From Prevotella sp. (lineage in GTDB: Bacteria; Bacteroidota; Bacteroidia; Bacteroidales; Bacteroidaceae): a stretch of 64,000 nucleotides of DNA. Made by a program: the position numbers and the translations under genes. Position 1 is the stretch's first letter. Every line of letters begins with the position of its first letter. Of the stretch, positions 2,354 to 62,896 are shown piece by piece. The DNA lies in contig JAFTFG010000006.1 in NCBI GenBank assembly GCA_017449675.1, forward strand, positions 124,001 to 188,000. Direction: 5' to 3'. The notes beneath the pieces are model-generated. The model had not been told where the DNA came from. It saw nothing but the letters and a program-made list of their open reading frames with translations, and did no database searches.

Positions 2354-2953
2354 ATGATACATCAATCCCTTTATCATCATCGATGGATGGTCACAGTCAT
2401 TCTGTGTATTGGTGTGCTGACGCATGCCAGTGCACAGACTTTTACTGAACGTGTTCAGAAGAAGGTGGAAGGAAAAGGGACGGTGACGATTCACCAAAGT
2501 GAAGACATCGATCAACTGGTAAATGATCCGAATGCCACAGGGACGCAACAGCCACCAAAGGGTAACGACGAAAAAAAGCCGACGGGAACGTCAAAGGGCA
2601 ATGAAACGGGAAAGAACACGTCGACGACAGAGCCTACTGCAACTGCACCTACAGAGACAGTACCTACAGAGACACCCGTCAAAGCGACTCAGAAAGTCAT
2701 GGGTTACCGTGTACAGGCTTTCGCTGGCGGCAACTCACGAAAAGACCGCCAAATGGCGGAACAGACCCGCAACAATATCAAAGCACAATTCCCCAACGTG
2801 TCTGTATATGTCCATTTCTACTCTCCACGCTGGATTTGTCGTGTAGGCAACTTCCGTACGTATGAGGAGGCTCACCAGATGATGGTCAGTCTTCAGAAAC
2901 TCGGATATAAACAAGCCTCTATCGTTAAAGGAAAAATAACTGTCGCATACTAA
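2354..2953 (+). CDS. SPOR-domain exported protein
   Basis: A 199-residue protein with an N-terminal signal peptide (hydrophobic core VTVILCIGVLTHASA, likely cleaved before Gln), a Thr/Glu/Lys-rich low-complexity linker at about residues 70-125, and a C-terminal SPOR-like domain (from GYRVQAFAGG to the end). SPOR domains bind peptidoglycan lacking stem peptides, usually at division sites. I chose the ATG at 2354, ten bases after the tpiA stop; an ATG at 2387 would give a shorter signal peptide, and in-frame codons further upstream lie inside tpiA. Its stop abuts the folE start. Confidence 0.8.
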   Translation: MIHQSLYHHRWMVTVILCIGVLTHASAQTFTERVQKKVEGKGTVTIHQSEDIDQLVNDPNATGTQQPPKGNDEKKPTGTSKGNETGKNTSTTEPTATAPTETVPTETPVKATQKVMGYRVQAFAGGNSRKDRQMAEQTRNNIKAQFPNVSVYVHFYSPRWICRVGNFRTYEEAHQMMVSLQKLGYKQASIVKGKITVAY

Positions 2954-3538
2954 ATGAATTCGGAAACAGAATACAGGGAAGGACTGGATAAACTGGCAAC
3001 ACATTATAAAGAAGTGTTGACACTCCTTGGAGAAGATGCCAATCGGGAAGGTTTGTTGAAGACACCTATGCGGGTGGCAAAAGCCATGCAGGTGTTGACT
3101 AACGGCTATGAGAAAGATGCCCACCAAGTACTGAAAGACGCACTCTTCAAGGAAGACTATAGTCAGATGGTGATTGTCAAAGACATTGACTTCTTCTCCC
3201 TCTGCGAGCACCACATGCTACCCTTCTACGGAAAGGCTCATGTGGCCTATATCCCCAATGGCTACATTACAGGGCTCTCAAAGATAGCCCGTGTGGTAGA
3301 CATTTACTCTCATCGCCTGCAAGTCCAAGAGCGTATGACACTCCAGATCAAGGAGTGTATTGAGCAGACCCTTCATCCATTGGGCGTGATGGTAGTGGTA
3401 GAGGCTCGACATATGTGCATGCAAATGCGTGGAGTAGAAAAACAGAACTCCATTACCACAACAAGTGATTTCAGTGGGGCCTTCAACCAAGCCAAGACCA
3501 GACAGGAATTTATGAATCTGATACATAATAACTCATAA
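2954..3538 (+). CDS. folE: GTP cyclohydrolase I
   Basis: Catalyses GTP to 7,8-dihydroneopterin triphosphate, the first step of tetrahydrofolate synthesis. It is 194 residues, close to the normal FolE length. CEHHMLPF supplies a zinc Cys and His residues, GLSKIAR is the conserved central motif, and CMQMRGV supplies the second zinc Cys. The ATG follows the upstream TAA directly, so the gene is very probably co-transcribed with tpiA and the SPOR gene. Confidence 0.97.
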
Positions 3539-8600: not shown

Positions 8601-8738
8601 CCAGACACTATTGTCGAAGAGCCGGAGGAAGAGGAGGAACAACAATCGCAAGAAACAAACGATGACGACTTCTTTGGTAATGACGCACCTCCACAGAATG
8701 TTGAGCCAGTTGACTTCCCTGACGATTTCTTCAGATAG
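5670..8738 (+). CDS. porW: PorW/SprE-like TPR protein of type IX secretion, fused N-terminally to a small Cys-rich membrane protein
   Basis: A 1022-residue frame. Residues 1-57 look like a small stand-alone Bacteroidales protein: one membrane helix (MEFALIIIGSIIILGIIAAL) followed by a Cys-rich segment with CTSCSSRTDC. At about residues 59-71 comes a second hydrophobic stretch ending in LAITSC, a lipobox, followed by CSTKKNTANTRWWH, which closely matches the mature start of PorW/SprE lipoproteins. TPR-type helices run from about 170 to 480, a low-complexity Gln/Glu/Pro linker from about 485 to 545, more TPR-like repeats from about 640 to 860, and an acidic Gln/Glu-rich tail. No stop separates the two parts and no in-frame ATG precedes the lipobox; a TTG at about 5854 could start a short signal peptide. 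PorW/SprE links the type IX ring and outer-membrane machinery. Function by similarity of sequence pattern. Confidence 0.7.
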   Translation: MEFALIIIGSIIILGIIAALCSWGDNDEPVVKDDGNCTSCSSRTDCKLADLVEKGKKTCQLLLIILAITSCSTKKNTANTRWWHSFHARYNTYFNGSQAFIDGSLEKETGNHDDHTQLIPLYTVANKNSKDLGKANFDRAIEKSEKAIRRHSIKARPAWNKRRRKTQKDIEWLSRREYNPFLWRAWLLLGKSQFQKGEFEEASATFGYMARLYQTQPIILARARAWQAKCYAEMDWLYEAEDLITKQRRDSIPYRATADWDYTLADYHIRSEHWPEATEYLRKAIRHEHRRKQRARMWFLLGQIETLQGHRQQAYDAYKRVIRLSPPYELEFNARIAQSEVMAATDVKKTISKLRRMAASDNNKDYLDQVYYAIGNIYLTQRDTIHAIAAYEQGNKKATRNGTEKGVLLLQLGNLYWQQEKYGDARRCYGEAIGLLDRDRPGYKELAERSKVLDELVPFTDAIHLQDSLQQLADMPEAERNKAIDRVIAELIKKEKEERRAQQEAEAEQQQQNGGSNLPSTPINNKPSTPSSPQSNLWYFYNPQAVSQGKQRFEQLWGKRPNADNWQRSNLTVLKLDGEEESPEESEDAEGTEKTDTTMIEPTEATDSLANDPHTREYYLAQIPFTEEQKQASDAIIMESLLRAGIILKDKLDNLTLSYRMLYRLVNQYPQYEHNDEAWYHLYLIYARQGRWTEADMALAQMQQQYAESQWTILLSDPYYAENQRFGQHIEDSIYAATYEAFRAERYQEVTANVALSAQRFPTGKNRAKFLFIEGLSLLNNQQADSCVARMRQIVEQYPESEVSDMAGQIVKGVQQGRRLQGNRMTADDIWRQRQNLEHPNDSTNIDTLSTERDTRYTFILAYSPDSINQNQLLYDIAKYNFTSYLVRNFDINIDTDGPISRMMVSGFRSYDEALQYAHQLSANLQMSQRLAGCRRIIISDQNLPLLGTVFSYDDYDIFYQEELAPVPLPQQQLLTQPDTIVEEPEEEEEQQSQETNDDDFFGNDAPPQNVEPVDFPDDFFR

Positions 8739-8760
8739 GATTTTGGGGTAGAAGCATACA
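8717..8760. repeat. direct repeat copy 1, spanning the porW stop codon
   Basis: CCCTGACGATTTCTTCAGAT-AGGATTT runs through the end of porW and reappears with few changes at 9122-9164, 405 bases downstream; the similarity extends past the stop codon to a shared GCATACA. Confidence 0.6.
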
Positions 8761-8818
8761 ACAATGGGGAACATTTTCCTGTCTGTCTTATTTTAAATAA
8801 GACAACCCCATGAAACAA

Positions 8819-8935
8819 AGCGTTCCACCCTATGGAACAAACAGGAAGGTGCCACCTTCGTGGGTCGAATGTGCCGCCTTCAACCCAAGGAAGTGCCGCC
8901 TTCGAGGGTCGAAGGTACGGGCTTCGTTGAGCAGC
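8819..8935. repeat. 22-bp degenerate tandem repeat array, locus A
   Basis: One unit of the GTTCC...GGAAC type (8819-8840) is followed, after seven bases, by four consecutive 22-bp units starting at 8848, 8870, 8892 and 8914. Their core is GTGCCGCCTTCGAGGG; the fourth is the variant GGTACGGGCTTCG. The same two unit types, the same 22-bp period and the same GGTACGGGCTTCG variant occur at 56683-56836. No protein-coding frame is convincing here. Confidence 0.7.
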
Positions 8936-8985
8936 ATGCCATGAAAAACGGTCACTAAAAACTACAATATCGCTGTTTTTCAACA

Positions 8986-9073
8986 AAATCTGCAAATCTG
9001 CCACAGAATCTGCAAATCCACAAACATCAGGTATTCAGAAACTTACACCGATTATTTGCAGATTTGCAGATTT
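8986..9073. repeat. long inverted repeat (hairpin), locus A
   Basis: AAATCTGCAAATCTGC at 8986-9001 is the exact reverse complement of 9058-9073, giving a 16-bp stem with a 56-base loop. The loop contains a further copy of ATCTGCAAATC (from 9009), so alternative pairings exist. The stretch between porW and the minus-strand cassette (8739-9135) otherwise holds only the repeat array, an AT-rich palindrome near 8790-8810 and the gene scar at 9122. Confidence 0.65.
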
Positions 9074-9121
9074 TTGCGATTTTAAAAATCACATGTATAT
9101 TTTGATAGAAGACAGGATTTA

Positions 9122-9164
9122 CCCTGACAACTTCATCAGATAGGATTTAGGAAATGTGCATACA
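9122..9164. repeat. direct repeat copy 2: scar of a porW-like 3' end
   Basis: In the plus frame this reads PDNFIR-stop, against PDDFFR-stop at the true porW end, and the similarity continues beyond the stop. It looks like the remnant of a duplicated gene end or of a recombination event that inserted the intervening 405 bases. Confidence 0.55.
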
Positions 9165-51240: not shown

Positions 51241-52131
51241 TTACTTCTTAAGTAGATTCAAGACCATCTTTCCCACGAAGATAGCATGCTTTCCGTTCTG
51301 GTCGACAGGCACCTGCTTGCCGTCCATATCAGTCAGATATTCCAACTTCTTGAAATAGGTGTGGGTATGGCCACCCAATACCAGATCGATATACCGTGAG
51401 CGAGGAACGAAGTACTGGTCGTCCTCGCCCCGATTACTGTTCCAGCCAAGATGCGAGAGACAGATGACCACGTCACACTTCAAGTCTTTCTTCAGCATCG
51501 TAGCCGTCTCGAGAGCCACCTTGGCAGGGTCCAGATACTTCACACCCACACAGTTCTTGGCAGATACCAGTCCCTCCATCTTGGGTGACAGACCGAAGAC
51601 ACCGATCTTCACCCCTTGACGCTTGAGGATAATATAAGGTTTCACCAGTCCCTCGCAGGGAGTCCCCGTGAAGTCATAGTTGGCACATACAATAGGGAAC
51701 TTAGCCAGACGGAACGTACGGGCCATCTCCTCCAGTCCGAAATCAAACTCATGGTTACCGATCGTCACGGCATCATACCCCATCAAGTTCATCAGTCCGA
51801 TCTCCACATCACCCTTGAACATGGTGTAGTAAGCGGAGCCCTGGAAGAAGTCACCACTGTCGAACAACAAGAGATCGGGACATTTCCGACGCTCTTCCTT
51901 CAGCATGGCGATACGGCGCAAGGCACCTGCCCTACCCGCTTTCATCGTATCCGGCAACTGGTCGTTGATGGGTAATATCGTACTGTGGGTATCATTCGTA
52001 TGCAGAATGACCAGTTGCTTTTGCGCCCCCACTGTTAAAGGTAAAAAGGTAAAAAGGTAAAAAGGTAAAAACATCATTACCGTTCTTACGACCTTATTAT
52101 ATATATACCAGTTTGTCTTCATTGTCATCAT
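51241..52131 (-). CDS. metallophosphatase (N-terminal half of a 5'-nucleotidase/UshA-type enzyme)
   Basis: 296 residues. Signal peptide followed by the metallophosphoesterase motifs LHTNDTHS, LFDSGDFFQGS, IGNHEFDFG, CLSHLGWN and VLGGHTHTY, i.e. the complete dinuclear-metal site of UshA-type enzymes. The C-terminal nucleotidase domain is missing here and is encoded by the gene just upstream. The signal-peptide core is encoded by four exact copies of an 8-bp repeat (52040-52071). Starts at 52131, 52128 and 52122 are possible; 52131 lies two bases after the upstream stop. Confidence 0.88.
   Translation of the reverse strand: MMTMKTNWYIYNKVVRTVMMFLPFYLFTFLPLTVGAQKQLVILHTNDTHSTILPINDQLPDTMKAGRAGALRRIAMLKEERRKCPDLLLFDSGDFFQGSAYYTMFKGDVEIGLMNLMGYDAVTIGNHEFDFGLEEMARTFRLAKFPIVCANYDFTGTPCEGLVKPYIILKRQGVKIGVFGLSPKMEGLVSAKNCVGVKYLDPAKVALETATMLKKDLKCDVVICLSHLGWNSNRGEDDQYFVPRSRYIDLVLGGHTHTYFKKLEYLTDMDGKQVPVDQNGKHAIFVGKMVLNLLKK
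52040..52071. repeat. 8-bp tandem repeat (GGTAAAAA)x4 inside a signal-peptide coding region
   Basis: Four exact copies. On the minus strand TTTTTACC repeats encode FLPFYLFTFLP in the metallophosphatase signal peptide. As eight is not a multiple of three, gain or loss of one unit shifts the frame. A degenerate four-unit relative lies at 62823-62854 in the TolC-like gene. Confidence 0.85.
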
Positions 52132-55364: not shown

Positions 55365-56684
55365 ATGAAAAAGAATAGTTTGTTATTAATAGGAATCGCT
55401 CTGCTGACCAGCGGACTGCAATCCTGCTCTTCTGCATTGATGGAAGAGGAACCTTTTGAAGAGGCTAAGGCACCTATCAACATGATGTCTGAATCGCAGC
55501 CTATTGAACTGACTCAGGAACAGAGTGTGTTAGTCTGCGACAACAATAAATTCACACTGAACTTCTTGAAGACGGTGAATGAAAAAGACCTCAGCGGCAA
55601 GAGTTTCATCTATTCGCCATTGAGTATCACCTATGTTCTGGGGATGGTGAACGAGGCTGCCACAGGAACTACGGAGAAAGAACTGGAACAAACGCTGGGC
55701 TTCCACGAGGGAGGTATTCAGGCTGTAAATGACTACTGTAAGAAACTGATTGACGGTTTACCGAAAGTCGATCCGAAGGTGACACTGAATATCGCTAATG
55801 CCATTTTCCTCAACAAAGAATACACCCTGATGGACCAGTTTCAGGAGAAAATGAAGACATACTATGATGCCAAAGCCGAAACCCTTGACTTTCAGGCACC
55901 AGGTACGCTTAACCACATCAACAACTGGTGCAACGAGAATACCAATGGTATGATTCCCACCATCCTTGACAAAGTGGACCCGGGGATGGTGTCATATCTG
56001 CTCAACGCCATCTATTTCAAGGCTGACTGGGCCTCGAAGTTCGATGTAAAGAATACCAAGACGGAGACCTTCACCACTGAGAGTGGTACTACCCAACTGC
56101 CCCTGATGCACCAGAACGTACTTATATCTTATCTCAAGACAGATACCTATTCTGCCGTTATCATCCCATACGGCTCAGGTCTTTGGAACATGACTGTGTT
56201 GCTGCCAGCGGAAGGAAAGACTACCGACGATGTGATAAGAGAGATAGCAGAAAGCAGTGTGCTGAATAATCGCGGTTGGTGTGGGACCGGGGGAGACACA
56301 TTCCAAGGTTATGAGGTGGACTTGAAACTACCTCGCTATGAGACAGATTCTGATACCAATACTTTAGGCGATGGCCTCATCGGTGTACTGAAGACGATGG
56401 GTATACGCCTTGCCTTTGATAGTCATTTTGCTGAAATACCCAATATGACCGGAAATCCTGTCTATATCGCCATGATGCGGCAGAAGGCAAAGATAAAAGT
56501 TAATGAGGATGGATCGGAAGCCGCTGCTGTCACCGCTGCCGGTATCTATGCAACATCTGCCAACGGGTCTTCTACCTATACCTATCCCAAGGCAAGGTTC
56601 CATGCTAACCGCCCCTTCGTCTATGTTATCCGTGAAGCCTCCTCAGGGGTCATCCTTTTCGTAGGTAAGTTCACGGGAGCATAG
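55365..56684 (+). CDS. serpin-family protease inhibitor lipoprotein
   Basis: 439 residues. Signal peptide ends in the lipobox GLQSC. The serpin fold follows from about residue 60: SFIYSPLSITYVLGMVNEAATG, NAIYFKADWASKF and the C-terminal FHANRPFVYVIREASSGVILFVGKF. The reactive-loop hinge reads EDGSEAAAVTAA, which keeps small residues at P12-P9 as in inhibitory serpins; by alignment to the hinge P1-P1' would be Thr-Ser within GIYATS. As an outer-surface lipoprotein it could protect against host or self proteases. Its stop codon is the first base set of a 22-bp repeat array. Confidence 0.9.
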   Translation: MKKNSLLLIGIALLTSGLQSCSSALMEEEPFEEAKAPINMMSESQPIELTQEQSVLVCDNNKFTLNFLKTVNEKDLSGKSFIYSPLSITYVLGMVNEAATGTTEKELEQTLGFHEGGIQAVNDYCKKLIDGLPKVDPKVTLNIANAIFLNKEYTLMDQFQEKMKTYYDAKAETLDFQAPGTLNHINNWCNENTNGMIPTILDKVDPGMVSYLLNAIYFKADWASKFDVKNTKTETFTTESGTTQLPLMHQNVLISYLKTDTYSAVIIPYGSGLWNMTVLLPAEGKTTDDVIREIAESSVLNNRGWCGTGGDTFQGYEVDLKLPRYETDSDTNTLGDGLIGVLKTMGIRLAFDSHFAEIPNMTGNPVYIAMMRQKAKIKVNEDGSEAAAVTAAGIYATSANGSSTYTYPKARFHANRPFVYVIREASSGVILFVGKFTGA

Positions 56685-56836
56685 GTGCCGCCTTCGAGGG
56701 GAGGAGGTACGGGCTTCGAGGGCCGCAGGTGCCGCCTCCGAGGGCAGGAGGTGCCGCATCCCTGGTTGTTCCCCACAGGGGAACAAGTTGCTTCGTACAG
56801 GGGAACACTTTATTCCATACGGGGGAACAAGTTGTT
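56683..56836. repeat. 22-bp degenerate tandem repeat array, locus B
   Basis: Seven contiguous 22-bp units start at 56683, 56705, 56727, 56749, 56771, 56793 and 56815 or within a base or two of these. The first four are GTGCCGCC-TTCGAGGG type (second unit is the GGTACGGGCTTCG variant); the following are of the type ending ACAGGGGAACA with internal TTCC. The array begins inside the serpin stop codon. Compare 8819-8935. Confidence 0.7.
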
Positions 56837-56977
56837 CCAGTATCTGGTTACTACCTTAAAGTGCCATTCCTTTCAAACGTACCTATATCTGGAACAACTC
56901 TTTCCACCCGTTTTTCGGTACCTTTCTGATTGTTTTTTAATGCCTTTCAGGTCGATTTTAGCCCCTATCTTACTCAT

Positions 56978-57045
56978 CTGCAACACATCTGCCACCCGTA
57001 ACACACTGATTATCAAACAGTGTTGCAGAATGGCAGATGTTGCAG
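56978..57045. repeat. long inverted repeat (hairpin), locus B
   Basis: CTGCAACACATCTGCCA (56978-56994) pairs with TGGCAGATGTTGCAG (57031-57045) with a two-base deletion; an inner stem AACACTG-type pairs ACACACTG with CAGTGTT. ATCTGCCAC is shared with the locus A hairpin. The stretch 56837-56977 shows no gene. Confidence 0.6.
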
Positions 57046-57071
57046 AGGATAAACATTTCTGGTAGGCGAAG

Positions 57072-61546: not shown

Positions 61547-62896
61547 CTAGAAATTCAGTTCCTTCCCCCGATAGAAATCCAGTAGAGTCGTCTGATAGAG
61601 GTATTCATAACGAGCCTGCACCAGATCACTCTCCGCTTTAAGGTAACGGTTCTTCGCCTCGTTGAACTCCGTGATATTCGCCTTCCCGTTCTCGTATTTC
61701 GCCTGAGCCAGTGTGAAGGCATCCTCACTCGACTGGCGGGCTGTCTCACAACTCTCATACTTCGCTTGAGCAGCCAACGCATTATAATATACCTGCTGTA
61801 TCTCCTTGTAGAGGGTCTTCTTCACGTTATCGAGTTGCAGTTGCTGTGTCTCACGGTCGATACGTGCCGAACGGATATTATTACGAGTCGAGAAGCGATT
61901 GAAGATAGGGATGTTCAGATTCAGTCCGATATACTGTGAGAAGTTATTCTTCAACTGTGTCCCGAAGTTATCCTGCTGCAGTCCACTCGTCTTATAATAG
62001 TTCGTCTGTAATCCCCCATTCAAGGAAAGGGTAGGATAAAGACCGGCCTGTGCTATCTTGATACTCTTCTCTGTGGCATCCAGTCGTAACTGTTCAGCCC
62101 TCACCTCCGGCTTGAAAACAAGAGCCTCTGCATAGATCTGGTCCGGATTACTCGGAATAGTCAGAATATTCTGATTAATCAGATTAGGACGAACGACAGA
62201 GAAGCCCTCTGGGGTGGGCAGTTCCAACAACTGGGTGAGACTCAGCAACGACAGTTGAAGGTTGTTCGCTGCCTGAGTTGCCGTCAACTGGCTCTGTGCG
62301 TGGGTGGCCTTCTGCTGCGACACCTCTGCCCCACTCGCCTTGCCATTCTCCAGAAACACCTCCAGACGGACGACCTGCATGGAGTCAATCTCCACCTGAC
62401 GCTTGGCCACATCAACAATCTCCATATCATAGAGGATCTGTACGTAGGCCTGTGCCACCTGCATCCGAATATCATTCTTCGCCTTCTCCAAATCCTGTGT
62501 CGCCGCCTCCAGGTTCAACTGGTTGAGTTTGATGGTATTGGGAATCTGAAAACCCGTAAACAACGGAACACTAGTGCCGAGGCTGAAAGACGTACTGCTG
62601 GTACTGCGGTTCGTATAGGTGTTATCCATCGTCAACCCACGACCAAAAGAGAAGGACTCTCCTACACTACCATTCAAATCAGGCAGTCGACTGTTCTTGG
62701 CCGTCGACAACTGCAACTCCTGTTTTCTTCGCTGGTTATCCCACTGTTGGATTGTCAGGTTATGACTGACGGCATACTCCGTACACTGGCGGAGCGTCCA
62801 CTGCTTAGACTGGGCATTTAAAGGTAAAAGGGTAAAGAGGTAAAAAGGTAAAACCTTCACCCACCCTTGAACCTTTATCTTATATATCTTCTTCAT
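61547..62896 (-). CDS. TolC-family outer-membrane efflux protein
   Basis: 449 residues. Signal peptide whose core (LPFYLFTLLPL, cleavage after NA) is encoded by a degenerate 8-bp repeat. The rest is a TolC-type pattern: two related halves of long helices and strands, with QWTLRQCTEYAVSHN, LSLNGGLQTNYY and a late YENGKANITEFNEAKNRYLKAESDLVQARYEYLYQ region. It forms the exit duct for an efflux pump with the adaptor encoded upstream (22 bases) on the same strand. Confidence 0.92.
   Translation of the reverse strand: MKKIYKIKVQGWVKVLPFYLFTLLPLNAQSKQWTLRQCTEYAVSHNLTIQQWDNQRRKQELQLSTAKNSRLPDLNGSVGESFSFGRGLTMDNTYTNRSTSSTSFSLGTSVPLFTGFQIPNTIKLNQLNLEAATQDLEKAKNDIRMQVAQAYVQILYDMEIVDVAKRQVEIDSMQVVRLEVFLENGKASGAEVSQQKATHAQSQLTATQAANNLQLSLLSLTQLLELPTPEGFSVVRPNLINQNILTIPSNPDQIYAEALVFKPEVRAEQLRLDATEKSIKIAQAGLYPTLSLNGGLQTNYYKTSGLQQDNFGTQLKNNFSQYIGLNLNIPIFNRFSTRNNIRSARIDRETQQLQLDNVKKTLYKEIQQVYYNALAAQAKYESCETARQSSEDAFTLAQAKYENGKANITEFNEAKNRYLKAESDLVQARYEYLYQTTLLDFYRGKELNF
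62823..62854. repeat. degenerate 8-bp tandem repeat in the TolC-like signal peptide
   Basis: Units GGTAAAAG, GGTAAAGA, GGTAAAAA, GGTAAAAC. Same unit and same encoded hydrophobic core as the exact array at 52040-52071, in an unrelated gene. Confidence 0.8.

Follow-up and report, generated by a model that had tools for sequence, protein, structure and literature searches.

A short run of tandem repeats and a long hairpin follow the porW gene of a Prevotella sp., and a similar set of parts lies at a second site of the same contig. What these composite loci are, and how they came to be dispersed, is the question addressed here. Both sites, termed loci A and B, are contained in the window (64,000 nucleotides; assembly GCA_017449675.1, contig JAFTFG010000006.1, positions 124,001 to 188,000). 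A sequence-only reading took them for copies of one dispersed, non-coding element with a single architecture, mobile or recombinogenic, and the analysis below bears this out as to the dispersal, the shared architecture and a probable mobility. What it missed is a parent element that carries VapE and DUF6078 genes. Judging from sequence comparisons, A and B probably arose as mosaics from one family of small, chromosomal, VapE helicase-based elements, and are non-autonomous in the manner of MITEs.

Composite loci in the window and across the source genome

Locus A is flanked by a 30-bp imperfect duplication of the porW 3' end, with copies at 8717-8746 and 9122-9151 on the plus strand that are identical at 26 of 30 positions. 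The second copy had been interpreted as a scar of broken gene DNA; it is instead a short copy of the end of porW. This diverged flank repeat is a candidate target-site duplication, and was found at locus A alone. Between the two copies lie a 21-bp palindrome, TGTCTTATTTTAAATAAGACA (8784-8804), which recurs at the edge of arrays L015 and L018; a single T-type (GTTCC..GGAAC) palindromic unit (8822-8838); four G-type 22-bp units on the plus strand (8845-8932, with starts at 8845, 8867, 8889 and 8911); and, on the same strand, a right end hairpin (8980-9110) whose outer part extends to ..AAAATCACATGTA. The hairpin has perfect 17-bp inverted arms (8985-9001 and 9058-9074) and a predicted fold of -29.5 kcal/mol (RNA parameters, without a shuffle control). 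Among 54 element end pairs, the closest to it is L230 from Prevotella sp. UBA2755 (score 75; runner-up 30).

At locus B, a plus-strand G-type array (56683-56760; TRF gives 56683-56757, 3.4 copies, period 22) begins at the stop codon (56682-56684) of a 439-aa gene. It is followed on the same strand by a T-type array of GGGGAACAAGTTGTTCC (56762-56840; TRF gives a GGAAC array at 56775-56839, 3.0 copies, period 22), a conserved internal tail segment containing ..TACCTTAAAGTGCCATTCCTTTCAAACGTACC.. (56843-56975), and a right end hairpin with the terminus ..CATTTCTGGTAG (56976-57065, the hairpin itself at 56976-57050), for which a fold of -32.0 kcal/mol was calculated, likewise with RNA parameters and without a shuffle control. 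The tail motif is present in eight fetched stretches of this genome (L013, L016, L017, L023-L025, L028 and L056), and was seen by eye in L057 as well. Both the array and the end of locus B lead to L055, an element described in the next section: L055 is the best autonomous match for the T-type array (score 38, then L191 with 35; median 12), and is the closest of the 54 end pairs to the locus B end (score 65; runner-up 50).

The hairpins of A and B, which had been linked by a shared sequence, belong to two different end families, those of the L230 and L055 lineages. The rare unit variant that was thought to connect the loci stands in part. Within the window, GGTACGGGCTTCG occurs at A and B alone, whereas GGTACGGGCTTC was found 9 times in the 23 array loci of this genome, and is therefore a recurrent unit rather than a private link between A and B.

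These parts are not confined to the window. In the source assembly (1.8 Mb, 54% complete), the 22-bp core GTGCCGCCTTCGAGGG has 53 matches with up to two mismatches, compared to one for the reversed control, and the hairpin core ATCTGCCATTCTGCAACAC has 21 matches with up to three mismatches, compared to one for its control; the arrays, unit and hairpins located at A and B are real. Twenty-five array loci were fetched, and two (L031 and L032; one 2-mismatch match each, without a second unit) were dropped, leaving 23. The array and an end hairpin of L055 or L230 type occur together in 15 of these, so that further copies with a hairpin do exist, as the earlier proposal demanded, but the co-occurrence is incomplete, with neither end hairpin in 8 of 23. 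L024 carries both ends (best match L055, score 64, next 42 among the 54 end pairs), and the other array loci are one-ended or array-only. A start at a stop codon, also part of the earlier description, holds for B and nearly for A, but is not a general rule: the 23 loci lie between convergent (8), co-directional (8) or divergent (4) ORFs, inside an ORF (1) or at a contig edge (2), according to a crude ORF table read by eye, some entries of which run across the array and are perhaps not real genes.

One hairpin-less array locus sits inside a U32 peptidase ORF. In this gene, a G-type 22-bp array of ~35 residues is in frame and the ORF is intact in three genomes (L014 1964-2047, L166 and L169). 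Within G-type units, the arm changes are G/T (29), A/T (21), A/C (17) and G/C (7); compensatory change inside the units is not supported, the trend being in the opposite direction (odds ratio 0.30, p 0.026). Rfam at gathering scores identified two tRNAs in the window and nothing else. A second short repeat type consists of CTTGCCACGAAGCCCGTACC, G units and the hairpin TCCGTGAGGAGGCTCCTCACGGA (L016, L019, L027 and L030; L157 and L160); L160 has a variant of the hairpin, none was seen in L157, and several copies have TTTTTTATGCGCCATTTT or a variant in front. There are also 8-bp tandem arrays of AAAGGTAA at window positions 52037-52071 and 62820-62853 (4.4 and 4.2 copies).

The two-gene element L055 and its family

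L055 is a 2.86-kb element on contig C5 of the same genome, in which convergent end hairpins 2.8 kb apart surround two genes. The order of its parts is end hairpin, DUF6078 gene (148 aa; 2.5e-36), 22-bp palindromic units, BT4734_N-VapE-DUF3874 gene (614 aa; PF05272 at 7.2e-33), and inverted end hairpin. Between the genes, a motif scan placed T-type units spaced 22 bp, including GGGGAACAAGTTGTTCCGTA, which is shared with locus B; TRF did not report this array. The match of L055 to the ends and units of locus B, within one genome, points to L055 as a parent of the derivatives. Locus B and L024 resemble MITEs relative to L055, in that they are short non-autonomous copies with ends common to a coding element of the same genome. 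A MITE parent encodes a transposase, whereas no transposase or integrase gene is present in the interior of L055, where the remaining ORFs of at least 80 aa overlap the two genes. L055 has two of the features of a VapE/Rep-helicase iteron replicon, namely a VapE-type helicase gene and directly repeated sites adjoining it. The VapE region matches PDB 7pds, "Similar to D. nodosus vapE" (E 5.8e-11), and also phage helicase/primase families. DUF6078 has four invariant cysteines (C18, C23, C29 and C58 in 45 aligned sequences), a conservation that suggests a metal site, and its weak resemblance to a lambda-repressor-like chain (E 0.071) is a lead only.

A VapE search gave matches in 41 of 60 congeneric genomes. 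Contigs were scanned with 13 aligned full-length proteins, and the best 80 of 220 relatives were kept; their titles name Prevotella, Segatella, Prevotellaceae, Bacteroidaceae, Bacteroidales or uncultured bacterium. In 63 of 75 loci, VapE is preceded by a same-strand DUF6078 gene, and in 12 none is detectable (five of the 80, with less than 900 nt upstream, were left out). In the 300 nt before VapE, 22 is the best period in 56 of 78 loci, and another period in 22, compared to 1 of 187 control stretches; short flanks took 2 of the 80 loci out of this test, and 6 out of the test for ends. An array contains on average 8.5 palindromes with 5-bp arms (0.9 expected), and for 55 of 65 arrays the palindromes exceed those in 98% of 50 shuffles of the same array. 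Of 74 loci, 53 have inverted ends that score above every one of 296 shuffles, and 21 do not; compared to 592 pairs from mismatched loci, the ends exceed 99% in 40 of the 74. For the 53 end-positive elements, the median length is 2,807 bp (quartiles 2,754 and 2,883; range 2,368-3,165). In arm tests restricted to these 53 loci, self-folding above the 95% shuffle level was found for 79% of 102 single arms and for 16% of mixed-locus halves, and 11 was the best short period in 28 of 106 arms versus 8 of 106 shuffled. Half-sites in the printed arrays also alternate about every 11 bp. Half-sites of ~11 bp give substance to the earlier suggestion that a 22-bp spacing, or two helical turns, is meaningful.

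The layout recurs across lineages while the letters of units and ends change. For example, units of different lineages read GGAAC..GTTCC, GGGAAT..ATTCCC, GAAAAC..GTTTTC or TACCAA..TTGGTA, and ends read TCTGCCACxCTGCCACC, TATCACAATATCACC or CTACCACTCTACCACC. For L164, a derivative in G035, the best matches are L195, L197 and L220 for ends and for array alike. In Parabacteroides distasonis TSDC17.2-1.1, a 22-bp array of 4.8 copies lies between DUF6078 and a BT4734/BF3469 gene, and the inverted ends are weak (E 0.004). The array and the ends covary with the proteins significantly but weakly (Mantel r 0.14-0.27), and partial Mantel tests gave no consistent binder of either.

A several-kb repeated module in the single-contig genome G024 (L094-L097) contains a 698-aa VapE ORF four times at ~95% identity; these loci were kept out of the boundary work. 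Plasmid pTS1 of the spirochaete Treponema saccharophilum carries a DUF6078 gene (L292, 1922-2359) with no VapE annotated next to it, which hints at transfer between phyla. As to a viral origin, none of 186 candidate stretches in an IMG/VR scan encodes a relative; in INPHARED, 510 records match the VapE query (7 over 80% of it) and 4 match DUF6078. Three of the INPHARED matches were fetched; all are unverified clones from faeces, and one of them has a CRISPR-like array. MT836291.1 (L290), filed as a bacteriophage, contains a VapE element and a CRISPR-like array of ~66-bp period, and looks like a piece of bacterial chromosome.

G-type arrays and element sites in related genomes

A G-type GTGCCGCC array is located directly 3' of a small gene, which we take to be DUF4248, behind VapE at L063 and L149 (this genome and G166). 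The VapE gene there is of BT4734_N-VapE type and encodes 712 or 721 aa (Pfam on L063 alone), and alignment places the G array of G035 at the same spot behind a 744-aa VapE (L150). In two relatives (L145 and L146), G units flank a 399-aa VapE on both sides. No G array was found beside VapE in the 80 family loci, and two scattered single units were seen in one locus. Seven of 22 VapE places in five array-rich genomes have G units at up to five mismatches within the stretch fetched, a count that has no control and includes L064 (a weak, 41-residue VapE match) and the overlapping L139 and L151. At least 20 G-core matches occur in five of 398 congeneric genomes (G000, G035, G161, G166 and G233), and by eye the remaining genomes have at most 11 among the matches listed. 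VapE is 60-64% identical to that of L055 in three of the four array-rich relatives, and 37% at best in G161. Of 20 genomes compared by PorW, these four relatives are also the closest (86-90%, against 56% for the one after them), and shared ancestry, as a confounder, therefore explains part of the match.

Presence and absence differ among these relatives. An element 85% identical in G166 and G035 (L154/L156) has different surroundings in the two genomes, and the alignment stops at the element ends; in G035, the site that L154 occupies in G166 also contains a truncated copy, whose right flank matches that of the G166 copy. The left flank of L055 is collinear to 1813-1818 in G166, G233 and G035, beyond which the element is absent, and only rearranged pieces of the right flank were found in G035 and G161. 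Loss also occurs, as indicated by short pieces of the termini left at the L156 site in G166 and G233. At the locus A site, the next gene comes immediately after porW in G035 and G161; porW is followed by other DNA without visible units in G233, and by an element with both ends of another lineage in G166. Window positions 8805-8864 are 93% identical (60 bp) to this G166 element, downstream of which lies a TTCTTCAGACAGGAT stretch resembling the duplicated porW 3' end of the window. The locus B gene was found in one of four relatives, G161, which is collinear to 56683 and then has no array or hairpin. All of these comparisons are one-sided: a two-sided empty site with target duplication was not obtained among the relatives compared, and no consistent target duplication was seen by eye at the printed ends.

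Alternating CG palindromes (CACGCGCGCGCACGTGAG or GCGTACGC hairpins) stand beside L112, L153, L193, L220, L223, L257 and L063, possibly reflecting a target preference or a chromosomal terminator. In the source genome, L058 (G000:C15:1-4211) has an exact 141-base terminal overlap that makes it a 4,070-bp circle in the assembly graph. It carries a left element end and a G array, together with genes that are presumably sugar-isomerase-like, aminotransferase-like and a HipA/HipB-like pair, and is either an excised circle or an assembly loop.

Probable origin of loci A and B and comparison with known systems

In the VapE-based family from which A and B probably derive, the intact form is ~2.8 kb long, with an end hairpin made of pairs of ~11-bp half-sites, DUF6078, an array of 22-bp palindromic units, BT4734_N-VapE-DUF3874, and an inverted end hairpin. 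The arrays may act as an iteron-type origin, bound by VapE and/or the four-cysteine DUF6078 protein, and such binding would open the DNA for replication, with the end hairpins delimiting the stretch that is copied or moved. Derivatives such as A and B would keep the cis-acting parts alone, and could be copied in trans by VapE/DUF6078. A more far-reaching version, which we offer tentatively, is that these are a class of transposable elements without transposase or integrase, in which VapE and DUF6078 copy hairpin-bounded DNA from an iteron array according to lineage-specific array and end codes, A and B being parasites that carry the cis codes of two or three lineages.

It is also conceivable that ordinary MITEs are moved by an insertion-sequence transposase that recognizes the ends, with VapE and DUF6078 as passengers and the array as a minisatellite, as in BrickBuilt. 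In overall appearance, with inverted ends, an internal tandem array, about 20 copies and partial copies, the repeats here resemble BrickBuilt, whose ends are IS5-like (PMC4596501), and a terminal stretch, CTACA..GTTTTT or ACGTAATTTTT, appears by eye to be common to several ends here. We regard this account as rather unlikely, since the ends are ~100-bp hairpins with a lineage-specific motif, the array differs by lineage yet keeps 22 bp, and genes that were mere passengers would hardly persist between matched ends in 53 of 74 loci, in elements of nearly uniform size. In addition, a Y1 transposase, the one family searched, was not found in the 54%-complete assembly. The same result bears on the idea that these are palindromic repeats of REP/BIME type that depend on a RAYT (Y1) transposase, an idea to which the dispersed palindromes and a GTAG tetranucleotide at several element termini lend some appeal. 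PF01797 (Y1_Tnp) has no match in this 54%-complete assembly and matches 5 of 14 control genomes, which weakens the RAYT reading, and the parent that was found is a two-gene VapE element; we give this reading hardly any credence.

Quite improbable, too, are chromosomal regulatory or terminator modules, in which the hairpins would end transcription, the arrays would bind a host protein, and the VapE genes would be unrelated neighbours. Most array loci do fall between ORFs, which are convergent at 8 of the 20 loci that could be classified, and the hairpins fold stably in calculations without a shuffle control. Nonetheless, in those 53 loci the VapE gene pair has matched parts at either side, 4 of the 20 classifiable loci lie between divergent ORFs, and comparison of a few sites shows some relatives without the parts.

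The literature searched, to which subscription papers and preprints do not belong, yielded no account of VapE elements with hairpin ends and 22-bp arrays. DUF6078 and BF3469 are not mentioned there; BT4734 appears once in each of two papers, and the accessible part of one of them, PMC5862659, is silent on such elements. By annotation names, the BT4734/BF3469-family VapE genes of Bacteroidales share the protein family and domains, but the literature searched shows no link of these genes to hairpin ends, 22-bp arrays or small repeats. A derivation from VapE-based elements gives a testable identity to intergenic repeats present in many copies, and to a common gut and rumen Bacteroidales gene pair for which no described function was found. 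Should the model of helicase and hairpins prove right, bacteria would possess a transposable element that depends on a replication initiator and not on a transposase, and natural matched sets of proteins and DNA codes would be available for study.

SaPI Rep and the SCCmec helicase Cch2 belong to larger islands with integrases or recombinases. The element described here differs from SaPI and SCCmec in its hairpin ends and in having no recombinase gene in L055. The likeness consists of a helicase gene adjoining short repeats, and SaPI Rep and Cch2 are self-loading helicases that bind such iterons (PMC7581432). Their origins lie downstream, whereas the element here is 2.8 kb in size and has its array upstream of VapE in the DUF6078 lineage. 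RepA_N iterons, in PLE satellites and plasmids, are semi-palindromic direct repeats bound by a dimeric initiator; the initiator is of a different family, and the available part of PMC7145576 does not mention hairpin ends.

Within the accessible text of PMC4596501, BrickBuilt of Porphyromonas gingivalis is the closest described repeat, with 19 intergenic copies, 23-nt tandem units between a leader and a tail, inverted 12-nt IS5-like repeats (GAGACC..) as ends, and many partial copies. Its intergenic location, tandem units, inverted ends, many partial copies and Bacteroidales host are all shared with the element described here. GAGACC-type ends are not, as the readable printed termini, inspected by eye, carry CTAC.. 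or ACCACGTAA.. instead. BrickBuilt has 12-nt IS5-like ends and, in that text, no coding parent, whereas the element described here has ~100-bp hairpins, palindromic units and a VapE-DUF6078 parent.
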